From Candidatus Binataceae bacterium (GTDB lineage Bacteria > Desulfobacterota > Binatia > Binatales > Binataceae), in contig DATJXN010000134.1 in NCBI GenBank assembly GCA_035500095.1, positions 1 to 59,722 on the forward strand: a stretch of 59,722 nucleotides of DNA, in the 5' to 3' direction. The position numbers and the translations under genes were made by a program. Below the pieces are notes generated by a model. The model was not told where the DNA came from. It was given only the letters and a program-made list of their open reading frames with translations, and did no database searches. The stretch's first letter is position 1. Each line of letters opens with the position of its first letter. Of this stretch, positions 1-38,767 are shown in pieces.

Positions 1-276
1 CCGATACGTCCCTGCGTCGGACAGAAATACTGATGCGTCAGCGACTATAGTGTATTGGCCCATCGCACCATCGGTCGGCACCATATGCTCAACGTGAAAT
101 CCGGGGCCTGAAAGCACGCTCTCCGGCAAAAGTTGTGTGACATTTATAATCGGCGGCTGTTCGAACTGACCGCTGCCCTGCGCCCACAGCATTTGGGGAA
201 CGAGGAATACAAGCGCCAGCACTGCATAACCACCAAAGCATGAAGCACGGCGCGATGACGAATTACAACGGATCAT
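1..276 (-). CDS. Secreted hypothetical protein, N-terminal part (runs off the left edge)
   Basis: The minus strand is open for 92 codons from an ATG at 276 to the window edge without a stop. The product starts with a basic stretch (MIRCNSSSRRASCFGG), then a hydrophobic core (YAVLALVFLVPQM) and an Ala-Gln cleavage-like site (LWAQ-GS), so it is probably exported to the periplasm or beyond. The mature part begins with polar sequence and a GPGFHVEHMV segment; I do not recognise a family. Tandem copies of a motif shared with two other promoters lie about 165-200 bases upstream (442-472), which suggests common regulation. The C-terminal part lies outside the window, so function is unknown. Confidence 0.7.
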   Translation of the reverse strand, partial: MIRCNSSSRRASCFGGYAVLALVFLVPQMLWAQGSGQFEQPPIINVTQLLPESVLSGPGFHVEHMVPTDGAMGQYTIVADASVFLSDAGTYR

Positions 277-858
277 TTGTCCCCCGCTAGGCTCCGTGAA
301 TCAGTGAAGCTCGACTTTACATTCAAACTCCCGGGACCAGTGCTCTCTGCACACGATCTACGTTCCCCCATGGATGAATGCTGCTGACTGACAGTTCTTA
401 CCATCGGTGCCAACCTAAACATTCTTAGGAGTTTGCCGCTATTGGACTTTAGGCCAATGGTCTTTAGTCCAATCAGGAGTCTTACTTCGGCGGCCGCGAA
501 GGCTGTACTGGGTACTGTCAAATATACATCCATTCGGAAACAGGCAAGCGTCCGCAACATCAGCAGTTCGATCACGGTTGGTGCTCACCGGGGCTGCTTA
601 ACAGAGCGGCTTAGATCCCGCCGATCGCCGAGTTGGCAGCCCGGCGTCCGCCGTCGGTGCATCACTCGCGGATTCTTCGACGCAACCACAAGCGGAGGCG
701 GTCTTTGGAAGCCGTTGGGGCGCGATCGAGGTAGCGTCAGACAGGCGCGGCCATTGGCATCGCCATGAGCGCGCTTCGGCGCGACGGAATCGATGAGCGA
801 ATCCTGCTCGAAGCGATTAACTGCGCTCGCGCCGTGGAAAAAACAAACGAAGCAAATA
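277..858. other. Intergenic stretch with one regulatory-looking site
   Basis: No convincing gene is seen here on either strand; the open frames have no signal, domain or ribosome-binding site. The only structure I can point to is the tandem motif at 442-472. Confidence 0.6.
442..472. promoter_or_regulatory. Tandem quasi-palindromic operator-like motif, site A
   Basis: Two adjacent 15-base units, TGGACTTTAGGCCAA and TGGTCTTTAGTCCAA, match at 13 of 15 positions. With the preceding T, the first unit reads TTGGACTTTAGGCCAA, which is nearly its own reverse complement. The identical 16-mer recurs at 5721-5736, and a variant tandem pair lies at 2530-2559. It precedes the secreted protein gene that starts at 276 on the minus strand. 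I infer a binding site for a dimeric regulator, perhaps the FixJ-type protein encoded nearby. Confidence 0.5.
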
Positions 859-1596
859 TTAGACTTTTCGCCCCGCGCGCTGTGCGGTCGACTTAGTTAC
901 CCCTCGAGCTCCCGAGCTGTCAAAAGAAAAGGTCTTCGCATCGGTGCGGCGCGCGCCGAGCCGTTCCGCCATGCGTGCCAGTTCGGCGAGCGATCCGGCG
1001 CCCATCTTTTCCATAACCCGCGCACGATGGACTTTGACGGTTCTCTCGGTGATGCCCAGGTCCGAGGCAGCTTGTTTGTTGAGGGAGCCTTCCGCGACCA
1101 AGGCGAAAATCTGTCGCTCGCGCGGCGTCAATCTACCGTAACGCCCTTCTATAGTAGTAATTTCATCGTGCGAGGCTTTCAACCGGCGGCTCTGCTCGGC
1201 GGCACGAAGTATCGCCGCAAGCAGCGCGTCGCTGTCAACAGGCTTCTCCAGGAAGTCCACCGCTCCGCCCTTCATAGCTGTGACACCAGCCGGGACGTTG
1301 CCATGACCAGTAATGAAGACCAGCGAGAGATGAGGAGAGGTCTCTTTCAGCTCTTGCTGTAGTTTAAGGCCGTCGATACCGGGCATTCGAAGGTCGGTAA
1401 CTGCGCAGTCGACTTCTTCGCGTGCGGAATTGTTGAGAAACTCGTACGGCGATGAGAAGGTAATGGCCTCGATGCCTGCCGACCTCATCAGACGCGCAAG
1501 AGAGCGGAGCGTCCGCGCTTCGTCGTCGATAATTGCCACTTTGATCGAGGCGCGCACGAGGCCTCCGGAAGTGGCGTCATTTGCGGCTTTCTGCAT
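859..1596 (-). CDS. FixJ-family two-component response regulator (receiver + LuxR-type HTH)
   Basis: The 245-residue product has an N-terminal receiver domain (about residues 18-135) and a C-terminal LuxR/FixJ helix-turn-helix (about 150-215). The acidic pocket (D24, D25), phospho-acceptor D68 in VTDLRMPG, T96 and K118 in LEKP are all present, so phosphorylation should work. The HTH carries the usual LTPRERQIFALVAEG and ITERTVKVHRARVMEKM segments. Family members are activated by a histidine kinase and bind promoters as dimers. No kinase is adjacent; the large sensor kinase at 6-11 kb has no receiver of its own and is the best candidate partner. About 13 residues precede the usual domain start, so translation might begin slightly further in. 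Confidence 0.9.
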   Translation of the reverse strand: MQKAANDATSGGLVRASIKVAIIDDEARTLRSLARLMRSAGIEAITFSSPYEFLNNSAREEVDCAVTDLRMPGIDGLKLQQELKETSPHLSLVFITGHGNVPAGVTAMKGGAVDFLEKPVDSDALLAAILRAAEQSRRLKASHDEITTIEGRYGRLTPRERQIFALVAEGSLNKQAASDLGITERTVKVHRARVMEKMGAGSLAELARMAERLGARRTDAKTFSFDSSGARGVTKSTAQRAGRKV

Positions 1597-2039
1597 GTTC
1601 TTGCACTGGCAGCTCGATTATCAGAACCGCTCTGCGATCGGGATTGCAGAGCGCCTACATTCGGCTCCCGTGAGTCTCGACGATCATGCGCTTGCACCTT
1701 TCTGGAGACAAAGTTGATCCGCGGTCGTGCGTATCCTTCGAATGACGGTGTGGACGGAATGGTAATCCAGCCCACTTTGCGTTCTTATAGCCGAGACGCA
1801 TTTCAAAGGATAGAGTTGCGCAGCGCTTCACATGCTGTTCACAAAAAACAGTGAAAGACTCATTAAGACATTGTCGCCGTTCGCGAAAACTCTTGATCCG
1901 CGGGCTTTTACGGTCTGTTGGCTATGGGTGAGGGGCCAATAACTGCGAGGATCGTTTTGGGCCCGCTGGCGCCTGGCGTTGCCATCGGGCGGCAACTTCT
2001 ATTTGCTCTGCGCTTCCTATTCGCTGGCATCGACAGCGA
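1597..2039. other. Intergenic stretch, nothing recognised
   Basis: I see no gene, repeat or copy of the tandem motif in this stretch. Short open frames on both strands have no recognisable content. Confidence 0.5.
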
Positions 2040-2456
2040 CTAGTCTGAAACGAGTCTTCGCTCGATAGGTGCATTCGCGCAAAACTCTTGATCGCGCAAA
2101 ATGCCCGTCGCTCTTGACGACTCGGGCAGCACGGTCTCGTACGCATAGACGATCCAAGGCTTATCGGATTCGATGCTTACGTAGCAGTCCACGTCGGCGG
2201 TCATGTCTCTGCCCGTTAGCGCGACAGGAACGGAAAGAGGTACCAGATGCGCTCCATTCGACGATTCGCGCTGAGTGGAGTGCACTGCTTCCCCTGCGGC
2301 GTAGTGTTCGATTGCTCTTGCACATACGACGCTAAGGTCAAGTTCACAGCCGGTGCGTGCGGACTCGTTGGCCGGAGTCCGCGCACTGCAGCCAAGCAGC
2401 GCAAATTGAATCAGTATCTGTGCACCGAGACCCAATGTTGTTAGCGAGTTGCGCAT
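2040..2456 (-). CDS. Small putative lipoprotein
   Basis: I start at the internal ATG at 2456 because the product then opens with a lipoprotein signal: MRNSLT, a hydrophobic stretch and a lipobox LLGC with the acylated cysteine at residue 23. This gives 138 residues; an upstream in-frame start would add 20 residues without a signal-like character. The mature part has several cysteines (C38, C45 region and C92 region) and no domain I recognise. It lies head to head with the TPR gene at 2649, and the shared 190-base promoter region contains the tandem motif at 2529-2559. It is probably an envelope protein made under the same control as that neighbour. Confidence 0.6.
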   Translation of the reverse strand: MRNSLTTLGLGAQILIQFALLGCSARTPANESARTGCELDLSVVCARAIEHYAAGEAVHSTQRESSNGAHLVPLSVPVALTGRDMTADVDCYVSIESDKPWIVYAYETVLPESSRATGILRDQEFCANAPIERRLVSD

Positions 2457-2528
2457 TTCTTCACCGAGTTCGTTCTTCTCGCGAACGTTTACGAAGCACA
2501 ATATCCGCTTCTGCATCAGGTGATGAAA

Positions 2529-2559
2529 TTGGCCTTTGGTCCATAAGCCTTTGGTGCAA
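2529..2559. promoter_or_regulatory. Tandem quasi-palindromic operator-like motif, site B
   Basis: Two 15-base units, TGGCCTTTGGTCCAT and AAGCCTTTGGTGCAA, are placed end to end as in site A and match at 11 of 15 positions. The site lies between the divergent lipoprotein gene (start 2456) and TPR gene (start 2649), roughly 70-120 bases from each start, where it could control both. Confidence 0.5.
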
Positions 2560-2648
2560 TAGACTGCGACTGGACTTGAGCGAAGAATCCTCTTTCTCGA
2601 ACCCGACCGACGAGAAGACCTGATTAGGGCGCTCGCTACTCTGAGCGG

Positions 2649-3392
2649 ATGAATACAAAAGGCTCACAGCGGGTAGCTGCCACCATTGCAGTGCTGCTCA
2701 TGTGCCTCTGGCAGCCGACAGGTGTCGTTGCCAATCCAGTCGACGAATCGATCTGCGATGCCGCCGCCGATCGCTTCCTTGCAGCAGAGAACTATCCTGA
2801 AGCGATTCGTCTTCACGGGGAGTTTCTGCGGAAAAATCCGACCAATGCGCTCGCTCACTATCATTTGGGCTTTGCTGAAGGAATGGTAGGCGACAAAACA
2901 CAGGAGCTCAGAGAGTACCGGCGCGCCTCTGCGCTTGGACTCTCGCGCTGGGACTTTTTTCTGAACATGGGACTCGCCTTGCTCGATGGCGGAAACCTGG
3001 AGTCGGCGACGAACGAGTTGCGGCTGGCCGTTGGACTCAACCCGAGCCGACCCGAGCCGCACTTCAATCTAGGCCTGGTCTATGAGCGCCGCGACATGTT
3101 GACCGAAGCGGAGCAAGAGATGCGGGCGGCGCTACGCTCGGATCCTACAGAGCTGGATGCCCGAAACATGCTGGGCGTCATTTACGCTCGACAGGGAAAG
3201 ACCGCGAAAGCCTTCAGCCAATGGCATGCCATGCTTCAAGACGCACCCTACTACAGCGCGGCTCGCAAGAACCTCGCAATTCTTGAGGGGAAGCGGCCTG
3301 TCTCACTGGTGACAGGGAGACGACCAATTATTCCCGGCCGTGCAGCAATTCGACCCAAGATCGCTAGGCTGAGTGCAGCAATGCGGCTTTAG
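2649..3392 (+). CDS. Secreted tetratricopeptide-repeat (TPR) protein
   Basis: The 247-residue protein begins with a signal peptide (basic MNTKGSQR, hydrophobic ATIAVLLMCLW, cleavage near VVA-NP). At least four TPR units follow between about residues 38 and 210; typical helices are ALAHYHLGFAEGMVGD, DFFLNMGLALLDGGN, PEPHFNLGLVYERRD and LDARNMLGVIYARQGK. TPR arrays bind other proteins, so a periplasmic scaffold or chaperone role is likely, but no partner is evident. The tail after residue 212 is basic and rich in Arg and Pro. Expression may depend on the tandem motif about 90-120 bases upstream, shared with the divergent lipoprotein. Confidence 0.85.
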   Translation: MNTKGSQRVAATIAVLLMCLWQPTGVVANPVDESICDAAADRFLAAENYPEAIRLHGEFLRKNPTNALAHYHLGFAEGMVGDKTQELREYRRASALGLSRWDFFLNMGLALLDGGNLESATNELRLAVGLNPSRPEPHFNLGLVYERRDMLTEAEQEMRAALRSDPTELDARNMLGVIYARQGKTAKAFSQWHAMLQDAPYYSAARKNLAILEGKRPVSLVTGRRPIIPGRAAIRPKIARLSAAMRL

Positions 3393-3655
3393 CAGGGTAT
3401 TGATCAAAGGGTTGAATCACGAGCTTGGCTTGGTCTGGTGAGATGACGAGGTGAGTATTGAGGTTGCGGGCGGGTTTCTGCCAAGTTGGGCCGTGACAGG
3501 CGCAGCTCGCTGGCGACTCGATTCATCCGCTGGGACAGAGCTTTGCGATTCTCAGCACACCTGGCACAGAATGAGCGGCGGCGGGGTGGCTCGGCGCTCG
3601 ACCCTCGCACCACGTTTCTCCGAGGACGAAAGTCCTATGGAATCAGTGCGGTCGT

Positions 3656-4468
3656 TTGACCGGGACGCTCTGGGTCGAACACCCTTTGTATACTCAGGCC
3701 ATGTTCGCGCTAACCCGTGTGCACGAACTTGCTCCCCAGCATCCCGAATGGACACAACACGAACCGTTCAAGGCCGTTCTCACGAACGATCGTGAGGCGA
3801 TGGCCAAGTTCTCTGAATCGGATTGGGAGGTTATTCTCGCGGCCACTCACACTGGGATGACCACCGAAGCATTCCAGAAACTTGTGAAGCAATGGCTGGC
3901 AACGGCCAAGGACCCCAGGTTTCATCAGCCTTACACAGAACTCGTCTACCAGCCGATGCTTGAGGTCATGGATTTCTTGCGTGCCAACGGATTCAAGACC
4001 TACATAGTCACGGGCGGCGGCCAGGAGTTCGTTCGCGTATATAGTCAGCATGTCTACGGCGTCCCGCAAGAGCAGGTCGTGGGATCGAGTATCCTGACCA
4101 GGTACGAGTATCAGGATGGCAAACCGGTACTAATGCGGGAGCCCAAAGTATTTTTCATCGACGACAAGACAGGCAAGCCGATCGGGATCAACCTGTTTAT
4201 CGGCAAGCGGCCATATGCCGCGTTCGGCAACTCGACCGGCGATCAGCAGATGCTTGAGTGGACCCAGGCGGGGAACGGTGCGCGATTGATGATGCTGGTC
4301 TTGCATGACGATCCAGAACGCGAGTACGCGTACGGTCCCGCTGCCGGTCTGCCGGATAGCAAGGTTGGTACGTTCTCTCAGGCGCTGTACGACGAGGCCA
4401 AGTCCAAAGGCTGGACCGTCATCAGCATGAAAAAGGACTGGAAGCACATTTTTGCTTTCGAGAAGTGA
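3656..4468 (+). pseudogene. HAD-superfamily phosphatase, broken at the catalytic motif
   Basis: The readable 270 residues match the body of a periplasmic HAD family whose intact members carry FDxDGTLW before the VEHPxYTQ segment. Here the frame opens only at a TTG reading (L/M)TGTLWVEHP. The preceding FDRD is found in another frame at 3655-3666. Loss of 5 bases from a presumed tandem gggac-gggac would explain this exactly. The later motifs are intact: TYIVTGGGQEF (motif II), K around the AFGNSTGDQQML block and NSTGD (motif III). The signal peptide and N-terminal region cannot be recovered upstream. The nucleophile Asp is therefore lost, and I consider it a pseudogene unless the 5-base gap is a sequencing error. 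An arylsulfatase relic lies next to it in the opposite direction. Confidence 0.75.
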
Positions 4469-4548
4469 GGTGATGACGCCGAATAGAGGCGGGGTTATGG
4501 CCATTGAGACATTGTCGATGGAACCGCGCTTTTCAACACCCTTGATGC

Positions 4549-4709
4549 TAGATGATTTTTGCCGAACTGCCCGATGGCGTAACCCAAGGACTTGAGCAAT
4601 TCCGCGATAGTTGGGTCCTCTACCCGAAATACCGCATTGGGTTCTGGCCCGTGATGAACGCGGCGCGTCTGGCCATGCAGCTTTGCTGGCCATAGTAGTC
4701 GGTGAAGGC
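4549..4709 (-). pseudogene. Arylsulfatase relic (two out-of-frame fragments)
   Basis: Reading 4709 to 4632 gives AFTDYYGQQSCMARRAAFIT followed by GQNPMR, matching the formylglycine-site region of arylsulfatases (C-x-A-x-R core). After a gap and frame change, 4620 to 4549 gives EDPTIAELLKSLGYAIGQFG followed by KNHL, the next conserved block of the same family. The corresponding blocks of the sulfatase at 37.1 kb read FTDYYAEASCTAGR and APTIATVLKSMGYATGQFGK. About 16 residues between the blocks and everything beyond them are gone. The fragment abuts the stop codon of the receiver gene at 4711. It is non-functional and shows that a HAD-sulfatase pair once stood here. Confidence 0.8.
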
Positions 4710-4710
4710 A

Positions 4711-5166
4711 TCACACAAGAGAATCTTTCGACAGTGCCAGCGCGCAATCTATCGCCTCGAACAAGGCTTTCTCATCTATAGGCTTGAACAGCGCTGCCAC
4801 TGGATGTGACCGGTCGATCAGCCGCTTTGTTTCGGCGTCGTTACGGCCGCTGATCATGATCACCGGCAAGCCACGCTGCGATTCATTCAACACACCGATC
4901 AGTTCGACACCATTCATTTCTGGCATGTGGACGTCCACTACCATGCATGCATTGGTCTTCGGGATGTCACTAGCGAGCAAAGCGCTCGGCCGATCGAAGC
5001 TCATAACGGTGAAACCGGCGGATCGAATCAACCTGGCCGCGGCGGGTAGAAAAGATAAGTCGTCGTCCACCAGCAGGACCGTAGCCCTGGTATGCTTTGC
5101 GATCGATCCGACGGCTTTTACTCGTCGTGCCTTCGACTGTTTGGACACTGCAGCTGCGCGCTCCAA
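4711..5166 (-). CDS. Single-domain response regulator (receiver only)
   Basis: The 151-residue product is one CheY-like receiver (about residues 28-145) after a basic, Ala/Lys-rich N-terminus. The acidic residues D34-D36, phospho-acceptor D78 in VVDVHMPEMNG, S106 in MISGRN and K127 in LFKP are present. No output domain follows. Receivers of this FixJ-like sequence type without an output domain act as phosphate sinks or connector proteins. It begins at TTG (5166), 37 bases after the end of a truncated DUF2092 gene in the same direction, so both probably share the promoter carrying site C. The sensor kinase starting at 6037 is divergent from this unit and may be the phosphate donor. Confidence 0.85.
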   Translation of the reverse strand: MERAAAVSKQSKARRVKAVGSIAKHTRATVLLVDDDLSFLPAAARLIRSAGFTVMSFDRPSALLASDIPKTNACMVVDVHMPEMNGVELIGVLNESQRGLPVIMISGRNDAETKRLIDRSHPVAALFKPIDEKALFEAIDCALALSKDSLV

Positions 5167-5205
5167 CTTGCCTGCTTCGCACCGTGGACGCCGTACCTCG
5201 CCTAT

Positions 5206-5640
5206 TTATCCGCTCGCCTTCTGGTTGGTGCCGTTGTACCAGAGAGACTTGGTGCCCAGATCACTTGCATAATCGAGAGCCAGCTGGTTGGGCTTCTTTA
5301 CTGCGTAGTCTGCGGCGGCGGCAAACTGCAGCTTCAATCGGGTGGGTAGCAGCACCTGGTCAAAAGCTATCTCGGCATGCAAGGTGAACGATTTGGCTTC
5401 GGCGAGCGTCGAGCACGCGCCACGCAGGATCTTCTCGGCTTCCGGGTCCACATGAGAACTGGCCGTTTGCGGTTGCAACGCAGACGGCGGTCCCTTGCTT
5501 GTGGCAGAGGCCGGCGCGTCAACCGTGGCTTGATTCGAAGGCGCGATCACCCCATCAGCTGCGAGAGCTTTGCTATCAATCGTTATGAGTGCTGCGAGCA
5601 TCATGGAAACCAAGGCGAACGAGAACGAGTTGGTCATCAT
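5206..5640 (-). pseudogene. DUF2092-type periplasmic protein, C-terminally truncated
   Basis: The 144 residues include a signal peptide (NSFSFALVSMMLAALITI, cleavage near ALA-AD), a low-complexity linker, and the conserved start of DUF2092: DPEAEKILRGACSTLAEAKS, then FTLHAEIAFDQVL, the YAVKKPNQLALDYASD segment and LWYNG. Members of this family run on for roughly another hundred residues after W-Y-N/D-G; here the frame ends after NQKASG. The missing part is not present before the next gene at 5166, so the 3' half seems deleted. Function of the family is unknown; a lipoprotein-carrier-like fold has been suggested. The gene follows motif site C and precedes the single-domain receiver. Confidence 0.65.
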
Positions 5641-6036
5641 GTCCGCTTGCTCTCGCCATCCGAATAGGGGACTTTCTGGCGTCTCGCTGAGAACTTAGCG
5701 GGTTTGTTCGGAATTGATAGTTGGACTTTAGGCCAATGCGCCGCCCCCTTCTGGCAATTTGGACCAAAGGCCTAGGTCCGGGGTGCTAGGGCAGGCGGGA
5801 CGACACGAAATTGCAGCAGACGTGGCGTAAGACCTGTAGTTACGGTTGTGTGACAGTCAGGTTACTTATTGCCGCCTTCTAATTAATCTGCCCAAGTGAT
5901 AAGAATTGCGGCGCACTAGCGCCATTTCCCCCAGCCCATCCGTGCGAGGGAAAGCTGCGCGACGACCATAATGCCCCTTGCTGTGCGGACGCGGGAGAGC
6001 ACTGACGCTCGCTCCCACTGTCACGGAGAGAAGCTT
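5641..6036. other. Divergent promoter region
   Basis: This 396-base region separates the DUF2092/receiver unit on the minus strand from the large sensor kinase on the plus strand. It contains both half-sites of motif site C (5721-5774). Nothing else is recognised. Confidence 0.5.
5721..5774. promoter_or_regulatory. Paired operator-like motif, site C
   Basis: TTGGACTTTAGGCCAA at 5721-5736 is identical to the 16-mer in site A. A second copy, TTGGACCAAAGGCCTA at 5759-5774, is in the opposite orientation and resembles site B (reverse complement TAGGCCTTTGGTCCAA). They lie between the DUF2092/receiver unit and the sensor kinase, so this system may regulate its own signalling genes. Confidence 0.5.
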
Positions 6037-9000
6037 ATGAGCGTTGGGGGAGGATTTTCAGCCTACGCCCTGGAAAGGCTGAGCAAAGATCCGCAGTTTA
6101 TTCTATATCGCGCCCGCGAGCCCGCGAGTCGCCGACGCGTCCTCCTGTTTGCTCCCGCTTCGGAGAACCTTCCGCAACATATTCTTAAGCGCATCGAGCA
6201 TGAGTACGCACTGCGCGCTGAGCTCGACTCCGCATGGGCGGCGATGCCCATCGCTCTGGCTCACGACGGGGGGCGCACGATATTGGTGCGCAAAGACCCG
6301 GGCGGAGAACCGCTCGATCAGCTACTCGAGCGTCCGTTCGACCTAAGACAATTTCTGCGAATCGCGATCGGGTTGACAACGGCCCTAGCCGCAATGCACG
6401 AGCGGCGCATCGTGCACAGAGACATAAGACCCGCCAACATCCTGGTAAATGCAGCGTCGGGCAAGGTTTGGCTTACCGGCTTCGGCGTCGCGACCGGCCC
6501 ATTGCGCCAACCACAGGCGCCCGAGCCCTCGGCGACCGTTGGGGCCACTCTTGCCTACATGGCTCCAGAGCAAACCGGACGCATGAACCGGTCAATAGAC
6601 ACTCGCAGCGACCTCTATTCGCTCGGAGTCATTCTCTATCAAATGCTCACCGGCACTTTGCCTTTCGTTGCCTCCGACCCTCTCGAATGGGTCCATTGTC
6701 ACATCGCGCGGCAGCCGGCATCGCCGCATGAGCGAAGGAAAGAAGTTCCTGAGGCACTATCGGCCATAGTCCTGAAGCTTCTGGCCAAGAGCCCGGAGGA
6801 GCGTTACGAGACCGCGGCGGGCCTGCGAGCTGATCTCGCAAGCTGCCTGAAGGCTTTGAACGCCGTTGGACACGTTGAACCGTTCGTACTCGGCAGAGCC
6901 GACGTGTCGGATCGGTTGGCGGTCCCGGAGAAGCTCTATGGACGCGACCGAGAACGAGCGATTCTGGTCGAGGCATTCGATCGGGTTGTAGCTAGCGGTA
7001 CGCCGGAGTTCGTTTTGGTTTCAGGGTACTCTGGCATTGGCAAGTCGTCGATCGTTAACGAGCTGCAAAGGGCGATCGTGCCAACCCACGGCATTTTCGT
7101 TTCAGGCAAGCTCGACCAGTACAAGCGCGAAATCCCCTATGCAACTTTCGCGCAGGCTTTCCAAAGCCTGATTCGCCAGGTGCTCAGCTGTGCCACCGTC
7201 GAGTTCGAAATGTGGCGCGACGCACTTATAGGGGCGCTGCAGACGAATGGGCAGCTCCTGATTAATCTGGTTCCAGAGCTGGAGCTGGTAATCGGCAAGC
7301 AACGATCCGTGCCGGAACTCACTGCGCACGAGGCTGAGAACCGGTTCCATCTCCTGGTTCGAGCTTTTATTGGAGTCTTTGCGCGGCCAGATCATCCGCT
7401 CGTACTCTTTCTGGATGATCTGCAATGGCTTGATCCTGCGACACTTAAGCTTCTCGAGCACTTGATTGTGCAGGTGGAAGTCCCTCACCTATTGCTCGTT
7501 GGTGCCTACCGCGATAACGAGGTTAACGCTTCCCATCCGTTGGCGCTGATGCTGGATGCGTTACGCGGGAGCAAAGCGCGGTTGGTTAAGATCGAGCTGT
7601 CGCCGCTCTCGCTTGATGACCTTGGCCGGCTGGTCGCCGATACCGTCCATCAGGAACCTGCGCTGACAGAGTCGCTCGCGCGACTGGTGCATGAAAAGAC
7701 CGCGGGTAGTCCTTTGTTTGTGGCCCAGTTCCTGACCGCGTTGGCCGAGGAGCGCCTCCTCGAATTCGATCCGAGCATAGCGACTTGGCGATGGGACGTG
7801 GATCGCATTCGCGCCCACAGAAGCACCGACAATGTGGTCGACCTGATGCTCGGGAAGTTGAATCGACTCCCCGACAATACTCGTGAGGTCCTCAAAAAAC
7901 TGGCTTGTCTGGGAAACAGGGCGAACGCCGCCACTCTGGCTGTCGTTCAGGGGCGGTCAGAGGAAGAGACGCACTCGGGTGTGAGCGAAGCCGTGCGGCA
8001 GGGGTTCGTTATACTTTCAGGCGATTCGTACGAGTTTGTCCACGACCGCGTCCAAGAAGCCGCCTATTCGCTGATCCCTGAAGAGGACCGCGCACACGTC
8101 CATCTGCAGATTGGTCGCCTGCTCATCGCCGCGACACCGGCCGACAAAATTGCCGAGCGTATATTCAACCTCATTAACCAGCTCAATCGTGGAACCGCAC
8201 TAATCTCCGACTCGAACGAAAAATCTCGGGTAGCCGAACTTAACCTCCTCGCAGCAAGAAAGGCACGGGGCTCGACAGCTTACGCCGCGGCTTGCACCTA
8301 CACGTCTGTCGGAATGTCGCTGCTGAGTGATGAGGACCGGGATAGCGCGTACGAGCTGGCGTTCGCTCTGAGAGTACTACGCGCAGAATGTGAGTTCCTA
8401 CGCGGCAACTTCGAGGCGGCGGAAACCCTCGTTTCGCAGCTTCTCAAGAAAGCGAACTCAACAGCCAATCGGGCAACAGCTTATCGCCTCAGGATCGACC
8501 TTCACATCATGAAATCGGAGCATACCAAGGCGGTGGACAGCGCGCTCGAGTGCCTGCATGTTCTCGGTATACAGCTCTCCTCGCGCCCCGTCTGGGAACG
8601 CGTCAAGACCGAATATGAGGCGGTCTGGCGGAATCTGGGCCAGCGATCCATTGAGAGCCTGGTCGACCTGCCATCCATGACTGATCCGGCGATGCAGGCG
8701 GCCATGGGCGTGCTGTCTGTCCTCCATTCCTCAGCCTTCTCCGTCGATATCAATCTGTTCTACCTGTGCATCTGCCTCTCTGTAAATTTGAGCTTGAAGT
8801 ACGGAACAACTGATGCTTCGGCACACAGCTACGCGTATTTTGGGTTTATCCTCGGAGCGGCCTTCCATCGGTACGCTGATGGTTACCGTTTCGCAAAGCT
8901 CGGCGTTGATCTGGTAGAGCGGCACGGTTTCGTCCCCTACAAGGCGAAGGTCTACATGACCATGGCATGGGCTGCGATTTGGACCCAGCCCGTCTCGACC

Positions 9001-11217
9001 GCACTCGATTTCGTCCAAGCCGCGTTCCGAGCTGCAATCGAAAGCGGCGATCTTACTTATGCTTGCTACTGCTGCGATTGGACGGTAACGGATCTGCTCG
9101 CGCGAGGAGATCGCCTCGACGACGTGTGGCGTGAGTCTGAAAAGGCTCTCGACTTCGTGCGGAGAGCCAAGTCCCGCGGGTACGTGAACCGTGTGCTAAG
9201 CCAGCAACAGTTCATCCAGAGCCTGCAAGGGCGAAGGTCGACATTCTCCACGTTGAGCAACACGTATTTCGACGAGGCGACCTTCGTGTCGCAGCTTGGC
9301 GCCGATGATCGGACAATACTCTGTTGGTACCGGATCCTGAATTTACAGGCGCGATACATCATGGGCGACTATGAAGCCGCCATCGCGGCCGCCGAGCAGG
9401 CAAACGGGGTGCTGTCGGCTGCGATCGGCTGTATCCAGTTGCTCGACTACCACTACTATACAGCGCTCGCGATCGCCGCGGTCTTTGACACCTCGCCGTC
9501 TGACCGTCACACCGAGTGGCGCGAGGCGCTCAACGAGCACTTGGAGCGGCTTAAAGAGTGGGGGGAGAGCTATCCGCCCACCTTTCTTGACAAATATTCC
9601 CTGGTTTCGGCCGAGGTTGCCAGAATCGACGGCAGGGACCTCGACGCGATACACCTCTACGAGCAGGCCATTCGATGCGCACGAATGAATGGTTTCACCC
9701 ACAATGAGGCTTTGGCCAACGAAGCTGCAGGTAGGTTTTTTCTGAGGCGCAGCTGGGAGACGATCGGTCGCGCTTATCTCTGCAACGCGCGCTCCTGTTA
9801 TATGCGGTGGGGAGCCTTCGCCAAGCTGGAGCAACTGGACCGGCTGTACCCCGGACTCGAAGAGCAAGCGACGCCGGATGCGAGTGCCACGACAGGTCTG
9901 TCAATTCAGGGACTCGATCTTACAACGGTGGTCAAGGCTTTGCGGAAGGTGTCCCGTGAGATCGATCTCGAGAAACTGATCGAAGCGCTGATGGTCAGTG
10001 CTCTCGAACATGCGGGCGCCACCCAGGGTCTCTTATTCTTGACCAGGGCGTCGGAGTGTCAGGTCGTCGCCGAAGCCACGACGTCCGGCGATCGGGTTCA
10101 GGTTAGGCTCGACCGCTCGCTGGCCGGGCTGTCTGCGTACCCCGAAAGAGTTCTTCGGTCCGTAGTACGAACGCTGGAGAACGTGATTCTCAACGATACT
10201 TCTTCGGTAAATCAGTTCTCTGAGGATGAATATCTACAGCTGAACTGCCCGCTGTCCATCCTCTGCCTGCCGCTGCTAAAGCAGCGCGAATTGATCGGTG
10301 TGCTCTATCTTGAGAATAACCTGACGTCCGGAGTCTTCACGCGGGATCGACTGGCGATACTTGAATTAATTGCCTCGCAAGCCGCGATCTCGCTCAAAAA
10401 CGCTCAGTTGCACAGCGACCTGCAAGATGAAAACCGCGAGCGCAAAAAAGCCGAAGATGAACTCCGCCAGAGTGCTCACGCGCTCAGTCAACTCCAGGAT
10501 GAGATGCGCCTGGCATCGCGTGCCGCGATGATGGGAGAACTGACCGCATCACTTGCGCATGAACTCAATCAGCCGCTGGGTGGAATCTTGAGCAACGCGC
10601 AGGCGATGCGGCGGCTGCTCGCCGTGACAAATCCGGATCTGTCCGAGATCGACAGTGCGATCGAGGATATCATCAGCGATAACTCGCGAGCGATCGAAAT
10701 CATCCGCAACGTTCGAGGCCTCTTTGAAAGGGGCGATACGCGGATGGAACGAACCGATCTCAAGCAGGTTCTGCTCGATGCAGAGCGCATTCTCGCTCCC
10801 GACGCCGCGCGCAGAAGCGTACTGCTTAGGCTAAGTCTGCCGGCTTCTCTGCCAAAGATGCTTGGCAACCGTACGCAGCTTCTTCAAGCACTGATGAACC
10901 TGGCGGTGAACGCTTTCGATGCCGTGTGCGAGAAGGGCGCCGGGCCGCGGGAAGTTGAAATAGCGTGCAAGAGCGAAGATGGCCGCGTCCACATCGCGGT
11001 GAGAGACACCGGTAAGGGTATCGATCGCGAGATCGTGCCGCGCCTTTTCGACGCCTTCTTCACCACCAAATCCGGGGGCATGGGAATGGGCCTCGCGATC
11101 GTGCGGTCAATTGTCGAGAACCACGGCGGCCGGATTTTGATAACACGCAATTGCAGCGACGGAGCCACGATGGAAGTCGAGTTGCCTGTGGAGGCCGAAC
11201 TGGCTATCACGAATTGA
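6037..11217 (+). CDS. Trifunctional kinase-like / AAA ATPase / GAF / sensor histidine kinase
   Basis: I choose ATG 6037 because GGAGAG lies 7 bases before it; an upstream ATG at 5971 has no such site. The 1726-residue cytoplasmic protein has a protein-kinase-like domain (about 1-280), an AAA16-type ATPase (about 295-640), a long helical TPR-like middle, a GAF domain (about 1290-1435), a coiled coil, and HisKA/HATPase modules. The kinase domain keeps HRD (127-129) and N134 but has TGFG (148-150) instead of DFG and no clear glycine loop or lysine, so it may be a pseudokinase. The ATPase keeps GYSGIGKS (330-337) and LDDLQW (D460-D461). The H-box histidine is H1508 in SLAHELNQP; N, G1 (DTGKGID) and G2 (GMGMGLA) boxes follow. 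It lacks a receiver, so it must signal to a separate protein, most likely the FixJ-type regulator nearby. Confidence 0.9.
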   Translation: MSVGGGFSAYALERLSKDPQFILYRAREPASRRRVLLFAPASENLPQHILKRIEHEYALRAELDSAWAAMPIALAHDGGRTILVRKDPGGEPLDQLLERPFDLRQFLRIAIGLTTALAAMHERRIVHRDIRPANILVNAASGKVWLTGFGVATGPLRQPQAPEPSATVGATLAYMAPEQTGRMNRSIDTRSDLYSLGVILYQMLTGTLPFVASDPLEWVHCHIARQPASPHERRKEVPEALSAIVLKLLAKSPEERYETAAGLRADLASCLKALNAVGHVEPFVLGRADVSDRLAVPEKLYGRDRERAILVEAFDRVVASGTPEFVLVSGYSGIGKSSIVNELQRAIVPTHGIFVSGKLDQYKREIPYATFAQAFQSLIRQVLSCATVEFEMWRDALIGALQTNGQLLINLVPELELVIGKQRSVPELTAHEAENRFHLLVRAFIGVFARPDHPLVLFLDDLQWLDPATLKLLEHLIVQVEVPHLLLVGAYRDNEVNASHPLALMLDALRGSKARLVKIELSPLSLDDLGRLVADTVHQEPALTESLARLVHEKTAGSPLFVAQFLTALAEERLLEFDPSIATWRWDVDRIRAHRSTDNVVDLMLGKLNRLPDNTREVLKKLACLGNRANAATLAVVQGRSEEETHSGVSEAVRQGFVILSGDSYEFVHDRVQEAAYSLIPEEDRAHVHLQIGRLLIAATPADKIAERIFNLINQLNRGTALISDSNEKSRVAELNLLAARKARGSTAYAAACTYTSVGMSLLSDEDRDSAYELAFALRVLRAECEFLRGNFEAAETLVSQLLKKANSTANRATAYRLRIDLHIMKSEHTKAVDSALECLHVLGIQLSSRPVWERVKTEYEAVWRNLGQRSIESLVDLPSMTDPAMQAAMGVLSVLHSSAFSVDINLFYLCICLSVNLSLKYGTTDASAHSYAYFGFILGAAFHRYADGYRFAKLGVDLVERHGFVPYKAKVYMTMAWAAIWTQPVSTALDFVQAAFRAAIESGDLTYACYCCDWTVTDLLARGDRLDDVWRESEKALDFVRRAKSRGYVNRVLSQQQFIQSLQGRRSTFSTLSNTYFDEATFVSQLGADDRTILCWYRILNLQARYIMGDYEAAIAAAEQANGVLSAAIGCIQLLDYHYYTALAIAAVFDTSPSDRHTEWREALNEHLERLKEWGESYPPTFLDKYSLVSAEVARIDGRDLDAIHLYEQAIRCARMNGFTHNEALANEAAGRFFLRRSWETIGRAYLCNARSCYMRWGAFAKLEQLDRLYPGLEEQATPDASATTGLSIQGLDLTTVVKALRKVSREIDLEKLIEALMVSALEHAGATQGLLFLTRASECQVVAEATTSGDRVQVRLDRSLAGLSAYPERVLRSVVRTLENVILNDTSSVNQFSEDEYLQLNCPLSILCLPLLKQRELIGVLYLENNLTSGVFTRDRLAILELIASQAAISLKNAQLHSDLQDENRERKKAEDELRQSAHALSQLQDEMRLASRAAMMGELTASLAHELNQPLGGILSNAQAMRRLLAVTNPDLSEIDSAIEDIISDNSRAIEIIRNVRGLFERGDTRMERTDLKQVLLDAERILAPDAARRSVLLRLSLPASLPKMLGNRTQLLQALMNLAVNAFDAVCEKGAGPREVEIACKSEDGRVHIAVRDTGKGIDREIVPRLFDAFFTTKSGGMGMGLAIVRSIVENHGGRILITRNCSDGATMEVELPVEAELAITN

Positions 11218-37044: not shown

Positions 37045-37068
37045 TCTATGGGACCTTGGTCCCATAGA
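37045..37068. promoter_or_regulatory. 24-base palindrome before the arylsulfatase, motif-like site D
   Basis: The 24 bases are symmetric except for a central TT: left arm TCTATGGGACC, right arm GGTCCCATAGA. The core GGACCTTGGTCC shares the GGNC-NNNN-GNCC spacing of the motif at sites A-C. It ends 67 bases before the ATG of the sulfatase gene, a good place for an operator. Confidence 0.45.
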
Positions 37069-37135: not shown

Positions 37136-38767
37136 ATGAGCTTGCATCGAGATATCAGTAGGTTGTTGATCGCCGTCGCTGGGGCGGTGTTGATGATTTT
37201 TCAGTCGGGGCTGGTCTCGCAGGCCGGGGCGCAGGAGAAAAAACCCAACATCATCTTCATCATGGGCGACGACATCGGTTGGTCCAACATCGGCGTGTAT
37301 AACCAGGGCATCATGGCCGGCCGCACGCCGAGCCTCGACCGGCTCGCCAACGAAGGGATGCGGTTTACTGACTACTACGCGGAGGCGAGCTGTACCGCGG
37401 GTCGGGCGAACTTTATCACCGGCGAGCTGCCGATCCGCACCGGACTGACGACCGTTGGCCAGGCGGGTTAGCCGCTCGGAATGCCCGATGAGGCTCCCAC
37501 GATCGCGACCGTGCTGAAGTCGATGGGGTATGCCACGGGCCAGTTCGGCAAGAACCATCTCGGCGACCGGAACCAGTTCCTGCCCACGGTGCATGGCTTC
37601 GATGAGTTCTTCGGCTATTTGTACCACCTCGATGCGATGGAGGACCCCTGCCATCGCAACTATCCGCAGGCGCTGCGCGACCGGGTCGGGCCCAGAAACA
37701 TGATCCACTCATGGGCCTCCGACACCGACGATCCGACCGTGCAACCGCGCTGGGGAAAGATCGGCAAGCAGAAGATCGAGGATGCGGGTCAACTCTGTCC
37801 GGAGCGTATGAAGACCGTCGATGACGAGATTCTCGACAACGCGCTCAAGTTCACCGACAAGGCGAGAAAGAATGGCAAGCCGTTCTTTTTATGGCTGAAT
37901 CCGACCCGGATGCATGTCGTCACTCATCTCTCGGACAAATACGAAAAAATGCGCACGCCGGAAAACGGCTGGACCATCGAGGAAGCGGGGATGGCCCAGC
38001 TCGATGATATCGTCGGCGCGGTGATGAAATATGTGAAGGACAACGGTCTGGATGACAACACGATCATCGCGTTCAGCACCGACAACGGCGCCGAGAACTT
38101 CACCTGGCCCGATGGCGGGCAGACTCCCTTTGCCGGCGGCAAAGGCACGGCGCTGGAAGGAGGTTTTCGCGTCCCGGCGATCATTCGATGGCCGGGCAAG
38201 GTGCCGGCGGGCAAGGTCGAGAATGGCATCGTCTCCGGCCTCGACTGGTTCCCGACGTTCGTAGCCGCGGCCGGCTATCCGGGTGATATCGCGGCCGATC
38301 TCAGGAAGGGCAAGAAAATCGGCGGCCGCACCTACAAAGTACACCTCGACGGCTACAACCAGATGGACATGCTTTGCGGCAAGGGTCCGTCGAAGCGCCA
38401 CGAGATTTTTTACCTCACCGAAACCACACTCGGCGCGGTGCGGATAGACGACTACAAGTACCGCTTCACCGATCAGCCGAACGGCTGGCTTGGCGCCACG
38501 GAGAAAGTCGATTGGCCGATCCTGGTCAATCTGCGCCTGGATCCCTACGAGCGGACCGGAATGTACAACGGCAAGGACAATGGGTCGATAGCCTACTACA
38601 ACTGGTTCGCATTCGAGTTCTGGCGCTTCGTGTTCGTGCAACAGGAAGTGGCGCAAGCAGCGCAAACCCTGATCGAGTTTCCCCCGATGCAGAAGGGCGC
38701 CAGCTTCAACATGGCGGCGGTCAAGGAACAGATACAGAAGGCGGTCGCTGCGCACACCGGCGAATAG
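37136..38767 (+). pseudogene. Arylsulfatase interrupted by one in-frame TAG
   Basis: One frame runs from ATG 37136 (CAGGAG upstream) to TAA/TAG 38765-38767, broken only by TAG at 37469-37471 (codon 112). Without it the protein would be 543 residues: signal peptide (LLIAVAGAVLMIF, cleavage near AGA-QE), metal site GDDIGW (D45, D46), formylglycine motif C86-TAGR, the substrate block GQFGKNHLGDRN, and FSTDNGAEN with the second metal pair. Intact family members have Ser-Pro or similar at the break (GQAG-S-P), so TCG to TAG is a likely single change. Sulfatase activity needs the C-terminal part, so the gene is probably inactive. No sulfatase-modifying enzyme is in the window. Confidence 0.85.

Follow-up and report, generated by a model that had tools for sequence, protein, structure and literature searches.

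A conserved inverted-repeat box is associated with one FixJ-type response-regulator subfamily in a Binataceae genome and in several bacterial phyla

Introduction

Operators have been described for several response regulators of the FixJ, NarL and LuxR type. The site of Sinorhizobium meliloti FixJ is TAAGTAATTTCCCTTA (PMC4999443), the consensus of DosR/DevR, a NarL-subfamily protein of Mycobacterium tuberculosis, is the 20-bp TTSGGGACTWWAGTCCCSAA (PMC2275270), and the ACTU motif of CrbR, a LuxR-family protein of Pseudomonas, is an inverted repeat such as CTAGACTTACGTCCAAT (PMC5715377). Specificity in this regulator family has been attributed to helix α9 together with the loop preceding it (PMC3246441). 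FixT, a receiver of a single domain, acts as a repressor of FixLJ in Caulobacter and S. meliloti, where it inhibits the autophosphorylation of FixL (PMC7078487). The stretch analysed here, termed the window, comprises 59,722 nucleotides of contig C134 of a 3.62-Mb Candidatus Binataceae genome. Its first 6 kb contain copies of a short inverted repeat, the box, which we consider to be the operator of one FixJ/LuxR-type response-regulator subfamily, represented here by the protein encoded at 859–1596, with a probability of about 0.8.

Boxes in the window

Six boxes of the TTGGACTTTRGKCCAA type lie in the window, at 442, 457, 2529, 2544, 5721 and 5759, and two extra ones were located with a matrix whose 38 training sites all come from other genomes.

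442–457, plus strand: box 1a, TTGGACTTTAGGCCAA; score 21.6 with the matrix built without this genome
457–472, plus strand: box 1b, ATGGTCTTTAGTCCAA; overlapping tandem with 1a at an offset of 15 bp
2529–2544, plus strand: box 2a, TTGGCCTTTGGTCCAT; matched by both pattern and matrix
2544–2559, plus strand: box 2b, TAAGCCTTTGGTGCAA, weak; 15-bp tandem with 2a
3622–3637, minus strand: extra box TAGGACTTTCGTCCTC, of moderate score (12.9, matrix); 64 bp before ATG 3701, the likely start of the HAD hydrolase
5721–5736, plus strand: box 3a, TTGGACTTTAGGCCAA; 81 bp upstream of the DUF2092 gene
5759–5774, minus strand: box 3b, TAGGCCTTTGGTCCAA; convergent with 3a at an offset of 38 bp, on the kinase side
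37049–37064, plus strand: extra box TGGGACCTTGGTCCCA (matrix); 71 bp before the sulfatase gene

The repeat units listed in the initial annotation are all present, the only correction being that the second pair starts at 2529 and not at 2530; the 16-mers at 442 and 5721, reported there as identical, agree at 18 of 18 bases. The element had been called quasi-palindromic, which is right as far as the palindrome goes and incomplete as a description: it is a 6-4-6 inverted repeat with the consensus TTGGACYTTRGTCCAA and the variant TTGTACYTTGGTACAA, and its centre, YTTR, has an orientation. The copies at 5721 and 5759, noted for their opposite orientation, form a convergent pair flanked by two divergent genes, and such pairs recur in relatives.

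Allowing up to three mismatches, the pattern has nine matches in the window against 2.0 expected, a count reached in none of 100 shuffles, and with up to one mismatch its matches in the whole genome are restricted to the 5.4-kb stretch that contains the six boxes and to one position on contig C98. Seven sites with a matrix score of at least 12 lie in the first 6 kb (the six boxes and that at 3622), where shuffled sequences averaged 0.067 such sites and never contained more than 1 (n = 300); the units of the window rank among the best matches of the matrix there. The boxes are confined to few loci of the genome.

A regulator subfamily that travels with the box

The protein encoded at 859–1596 contains Response_reg (89 bits) and GerE (70.5 bits) domains, both above the cut-off, which places it in the FixJ/NarL/LuxR-type family; its best solved relatives by sequence match to the PDB are StyR (1YIO) and FixJ (5XSO). 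The box accompanies one subfamily of such regulators in Binatia-like, Desulfobacterota, Acidobacteria, Verrucomicrobia, Rokubacteria, Polyangium, Cupriavidus and Trinickia records. Genes in these other genomes were called by the length of open reading frames (ORFs), and many of the loci are fragments of metagenome assemblies. Eighty named loci picked by regulator similarity alone (1.29 Mb) gave 28 box matches against 4 for the reversed pattern; those with boxes come from Acidobacteria, Vicinamibacterales, Desulfatiglandales, Verrucomicrobia, Rokubacteria, Polyangium fumosum, Cupriavidus basilensis and Trinickia fusca, and the box is situated mostly 13–190 bp downstream of the regulator gene. 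The general pattern, with one mismatch, matched 45 times across 41 same-family genomes, versus 16 times for its reverse, and most of its matches came from genomes that encode a close homologue of the regulator. The exact pattern matched 20 times across 297 genomes of the phylum, versus 4 for the control, with the matches clustered in a few genomes around the same module.

The association follows the recognition helix. A box lies within 6 kb of 40 of the 47 regulators with the signature E[KRQ]T[IV]K[VAIY]HR, compared with 1 of 69 others (Fisher, 1e-22), a count whose loci partly overlap the training set of the matrix; the box-poor group includes Bradyrhizobium proteins with an E[IV]T helix and a paralogue on C98 with KQHR. 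Cleaner tests are provided by the matrix that excludes this genome, by a box pair on contig C150 (see below) and by 19 new regulators chosen by protein similarity alone, where the box was present at 10 of 13 with the signature and at 1 of 6 without it. Plasmid-borne homologues from Microvirga, Rhizobium and Sinorhizobium, which have E[IV]T helices and no box, are in line with this rule.

Within the signature, the residue after the lysine varies together with the half-site. Where it is A, the half-sites are TTGTAC/GTACAA or near (T/A) in all four cases, and where it is V, I or Y they are TTGGAC or near (G) in 35 of 36 (A versus V/I/Y, P = 5e-5). The covariation extends to close sisters: regulator L123 (A) has the box TTGTACTTTGGTACAA with half-site TTGTAC, L266 (V, 74% identical to L123) has TTGGACTTTGGTCCAA with TTGGAC, and L267 (K, 76% identical to L123) has TGGGACTTTAGTCCCA with GGGAC.

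Two other helix types were observed alongside. The box is absent at Bradyrhizobium-type (E[IV]T helix) regulators, where a different block, approximately ACAAACCTAAGTATGATTTTACAAT, is conserved at the same place, between the genes for the regulator and a stand-alone receiver (loci L139, L143, L145, L147, L149, L150, L154, L160, L161, L170, L172, L175, L137 and L198); reminiscent of the S. meliloti FixJ site, this block may serve the E[IV]T-helix subfamily as its operator. At L045 (C98), 387–3826, the KQHR-helix paralogue is part of an apparent operon of receiver, regulator, MlaE and MlaF-like ATPase genes. Boxes of the form TCGGAC..GTCCGA (C145:24885 and L054) may belong to this helix type; a de novo palindrome search at KQHR paralogues found nothing in common.

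Placement, pairing and orientation

The initial annotation had assigned the motif to promoter regions. Counting sites with a matrix score of at least 18 and ORFs of at least 150 amino acids (aa), 42 sites were located outside ORFs (373 kb) and 15 inside (1,277 kb), an approximately tenfold higher density outside, with a single site for the reversed-matrix control. Boxes also occur in pairs, with 17 secondary boxes within 75 bp of 103 primary sites against 0.85 expected (pairs counted from both sides). Convergent pairs with spacings of 33–38 bp lie before the DUF2092 and kinase genes of the window, before the DUF2092 gene of C150, twice in genome G026 and in G025. The 15-bp overlapping tandem is also found in G221, G245 and G401, three genomes of another family, where it is about 600–730 bp from the regulator and precedes a gene for an RpoH-like sigma factor; this placement would make the module a master switch in those three genomes.

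Tandem boxes before the RpoH-like gene: L281, 2722/2737; L284, 2803/2818; L278, 888/903

The box before a stand-alone receiver gene points opposite to that gene in 15 of 17 cases, so that, where a convergent pair separates divergent genes, each gene has its nearer box in the receiver-type orientation. The distance from box to start codon is mostly 60–100 bp.

Target genes

The genes around the boxes of the window are as follows.

1–276, minus strand: secreted protein, N-terminal 92 aa, cut by the contig end; boxes 1a and 1b 166–196 bp upstream
859–1596, minus strand: FixJ-type response regulator, proposed reader of the box; Pfam Response_reg and GerE; recognition helix ERTVKVHR
2040–2456, minus strand: lipoprotein with lipobox LLGC (start 2456 and lipobox judged by eye); box pair 2 73–103 bp upstream
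2649–3392, plus strand: TPR protein with signal peptide (Pfam); starts 90 bp after box pair 2
3701–4468, plus strand: HAD-family hydrolase (Pfam); ORF 3656–4468, start 3701 judged by eye
4711–5166, minus strand: stand-alone receiver (Pfam), a single-domain response regulator and candidate FixT-like feedback protein
5206–5640, minus strand: DUF2092 periplasmic protein, truncated (71 of 212 profile positions)
5971–11217, plus strand: sensor composed of Ser/Thr kinase, AAA, TPR-like, GAF and histidine kinase parts (Pfam); likely start ATG 6037, by eye
37136–38767, plus strand: sulfatase gene with one in-frame stop, TAG at 37469–37471

Boxes had been said to precede the genes for the secreted protein, the lipoprotein, the TPR protein, the DUF2092/receiver unit and the kinase, and each group does precede a gene whose product either bears a secretion or lipoprotein signal or takes part in signalling. 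The secreted protein and the lipoprotein have no Pfam match; relatives of the former are found on C98 and in genome G004. The box at 37049, located with the matrix, precedes the sulfatase gene, and sulfatases are also targets in relatives; together with the C150 pair described below, this site was a prediction borne out. Similarity to sulfatases continues in frame on both sides of the TAG codon, which may reflect a pseudogene, an assembly error or readthrough.

Elsewhere, the stand-alone receiver gene adjoining that of the regulator is both the commonest target and the best conserved one. Other targets are genes for DUF2092, DUF3313, DUF3300/2950, Ysc84, FadL, sulfatases and sensor kinases, as well as the RpoH-like sigma factor in three genomes; around regulator homologues in same-family genomes, boxes precede DUF3313, DUF2092, sulfatase, FadL, DUF1254 and receiver genes. 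The genome described here has only two DUF2092 genes. The second, located on C150 with its own profile, is preceded by a convergent pair of boxes and has a partner gene for DUF6515; the same contig also encodes FadL and a similar kinase. The window protein aligns to residues 37–171 of the 318-aa C150 copy and ends before the receiver gene. Conservation before orthologous genes is thus seen upstream of DUF2092 at two loci in this genome and in G001 and G312, and before the stand-alone receiver in many genomes. The two outcomes that the initial annotation had listed as refuting the regulon, an equal frequency of the motif in coding sequence and a lack of such conservation, were both checked and did not occur. 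All DUF2092 loci with a box are in genomes with a signature regulator. A phylum-wide link between DUF2092 and the box was considered and rejected, a strong upstream box being present at only 3 of 29 loci besides the window copy (C150, G001 and G312).

The receiver encoded at 4711–5166 contains Response_reg as its only Pfam domain, and its best NCBIfam match, FixJ, is below the cut-off. The box lies upstream of its unit in the window and directly upstream of the gene in many relatives, making it a single-domain receiver in a cognate regulon, with the box as the ground for membership. Its position as the most conserved target, adjoining the regulator, suggests FixT-like feedback. The proposal of an undescribed regulon for envelope proteins is largely supported: the envelope link holds as a tendency, the most conserved target is the receiver rather than an envelope gene, and the regulon is better described as envelope genes plus autoregulation.

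A separate set of copies, TTGTACCTTGGTACAA (L228 6125, L229 5733 and L230 7060), precedes large adhesin-like genes, with no FixJ-type regulator seen nearby; in two genera these genes are divergent from a transglutaminase/LapD-like operon (named by eye).

Proposed mechanism and alternative explanations

The FixJ-type protein had been proposed as the regulator acting on the box. Co-occurrence and the covariation of recognition helix and half-site back this assignment, and binding itself is what we infer from them; what was computed directly comprises the boxes, with their fixed orientation and their position outside coding sequence, the genes that they target, the association across phyla and the covariation. 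We propose that the regulator would be phosphorylated, in response to a putative signal, by a sensor kinase, which in the window is the large Ser/Thr kinase–AAA–GAF–histidine kinase. The phosphorylated protein would dimerize, its recognition helices directly contacting two TTGGAC half-sites, with the V or A that follows the conserved lysine probably reading base 4 of the half-site. The bound dimer would then activate transcription of envelope and secreted proteins and, as the most conserved target, of the stand-alone receiver, which probably exerts feedback on the kinase in the manner of FixT on FixL. Activation is favoured because boxes lie mostly 60–100 bp before start codons.

That the subfamily reads the box mainly as a repressor or autoregulatory site, the envelope genes being secondary, lineage-specific additions, is unlikely but has some claim to attention, since the most conserved target is the receiver adjoining the regulator and the envelope targets vary between lineages; the start-codon distances and the lack of a sigma-70 consensus nevertheless suit an activator, and FixJ, DosR and CrbR are activators. 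Were the box instead the operator of another regulator in the same clusters, with the FixJ-type protein a bystander, boxes on contigs without such a regulator, and the TTGTACCTTGGTACAA copies before adhesin/LapD-like operons, would be accounted for. This is improbable: no other DNA-binding protein common to the box loci was seen, and even among close sisters a difference in the recognition helix of the regulator goes with a difference in the half-site.

Many copies directly follow the regulator stop codon, and their arms could pair as a 6-bp stem with a 4-base loop, as in an intrinsic terminator, attenuator or RNA hairpin. A T tract follows the box in few cases and the window boxes are absent from the list of predicted terminators, which disfavours such a structure; the occurrence of boxes as convergent pairs, as tandems overlapping at 15 bp and between genes that diverge is also unlike a terminator, and the loop bases are conserved and oriented, leaving this explanation very little room. 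The clustering of the repeats in one part of one contig might recall the remnant of a mobile or repetitive element, or chance similarity. Their flanks are unrelated, however, and the same box stands at fixed places in other phyla; chance was rejected by the 7 sites found against 0.07 expected and by the 80-locus, 19-regulator and window-shuffle tests, so that an origin of this kind is barely conceivable.

Several observations weigh against the box being an activating operator of this subfamily. The Fisher values overstate the evidence because the regulators share ancestry, and tree-independent pairs, about three concordant and none discordant, point in the same direction and are too few for significance. 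Seven signature regulators have no nearby box (L051, L136, L184, L193, L273, L280 and L282), some of them near contig ends or with only 1.5 kb of flank; the boxes of L051 are probably on an adjoining contig. A search of the window region revealed no sigma-70-like promoter, most DUF2092 genes of the phylum are without a box, and the C98 paralogue could share some boxes.

The box appears to mark an envelope and signalling gene set without earlier description: none was found for the box or the gene set in a limited collection of open-access papers, in searches for box strings and for combinations of DUFs exact strings occurred only in unrelated, mainly human and plant, papers, and the main text of a Desulfovibrio DAP-chip paper contains no such motif. 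On balance it is probable that we are dealing with an undescribed two-component output module common to several phyla, with a helix-to-operator code, autoregulated receiver feedback, interchangeable kinases, an envelope regulon of mostly uncharacterized DUFs and, in one lineage, an RpoH-like sigma factor. It would supply a predicted operator for regulators of many uncultured soil and sediment bacteria, whose targets could be read from sequence alone, and would tie families without known function (DUF2092, DUF3313, DUF3300, DUF2950 and DUF6515) and sulfatases to one signalling pathway. The one-residue, one-base specificity rule for FixJ-type helices could be tested at the bench in cultured relatives, for example C. 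basilensis, T. fusca or P. fumosum.

Comparison with known systems

Among described operators, the DosR box shares the 12-bp core GGACT-WW-AGTCC with boxes of the GGACTTTAGTCC type, both having the form of LuxR-type palindromes. The window box resembles the 20-bp TTSGGGACTWWAGTCCCSAA in its core and differs in flanks and length: the DosR box is four bases longer and has a symmetric WW centre in contrast to the oriented YTTR, and its regulator belongs to another receiver subfamily with other targets. The ACTU motif of CrbR likewise has a GAC-N4-GTC core, whereas its flanks are weaker, its targets serve acetate utilization and its sensor is the hybrid CrbS. StyR, from the styrene regulators, is the closest solved relative of the protein encoded at 859–1596 and also has KVHR in its helix, which reads EVTVKVHR rather than E[KRQ]T; its target is a ATAAACCATGGTTTAT-type box.

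With respect to FixL–FixJ–FixT of rhizobia and Caulobacter, the window box is of the TTGGACYTTRGTCCAA type and is distinct from the S. meliloti FixJ operator TAAGTAATTTCCCTTA. The regulator scores 192 bits against the NCBIfam FixJ equivalog NF006900, for which the cut-off is 255, and so falls outside FixJ proper; there is no haem PAS sensor here, and neither fixK nor nifA is among the targets seen. The resemblance lies in the architecture: a FixJ-type regulator with 5XSO among its best PDB sequence matches, a histidine kinase whose catalytic part resembles that of FixL and, as with FixT, a stand-alone receiver gene within the regulon.

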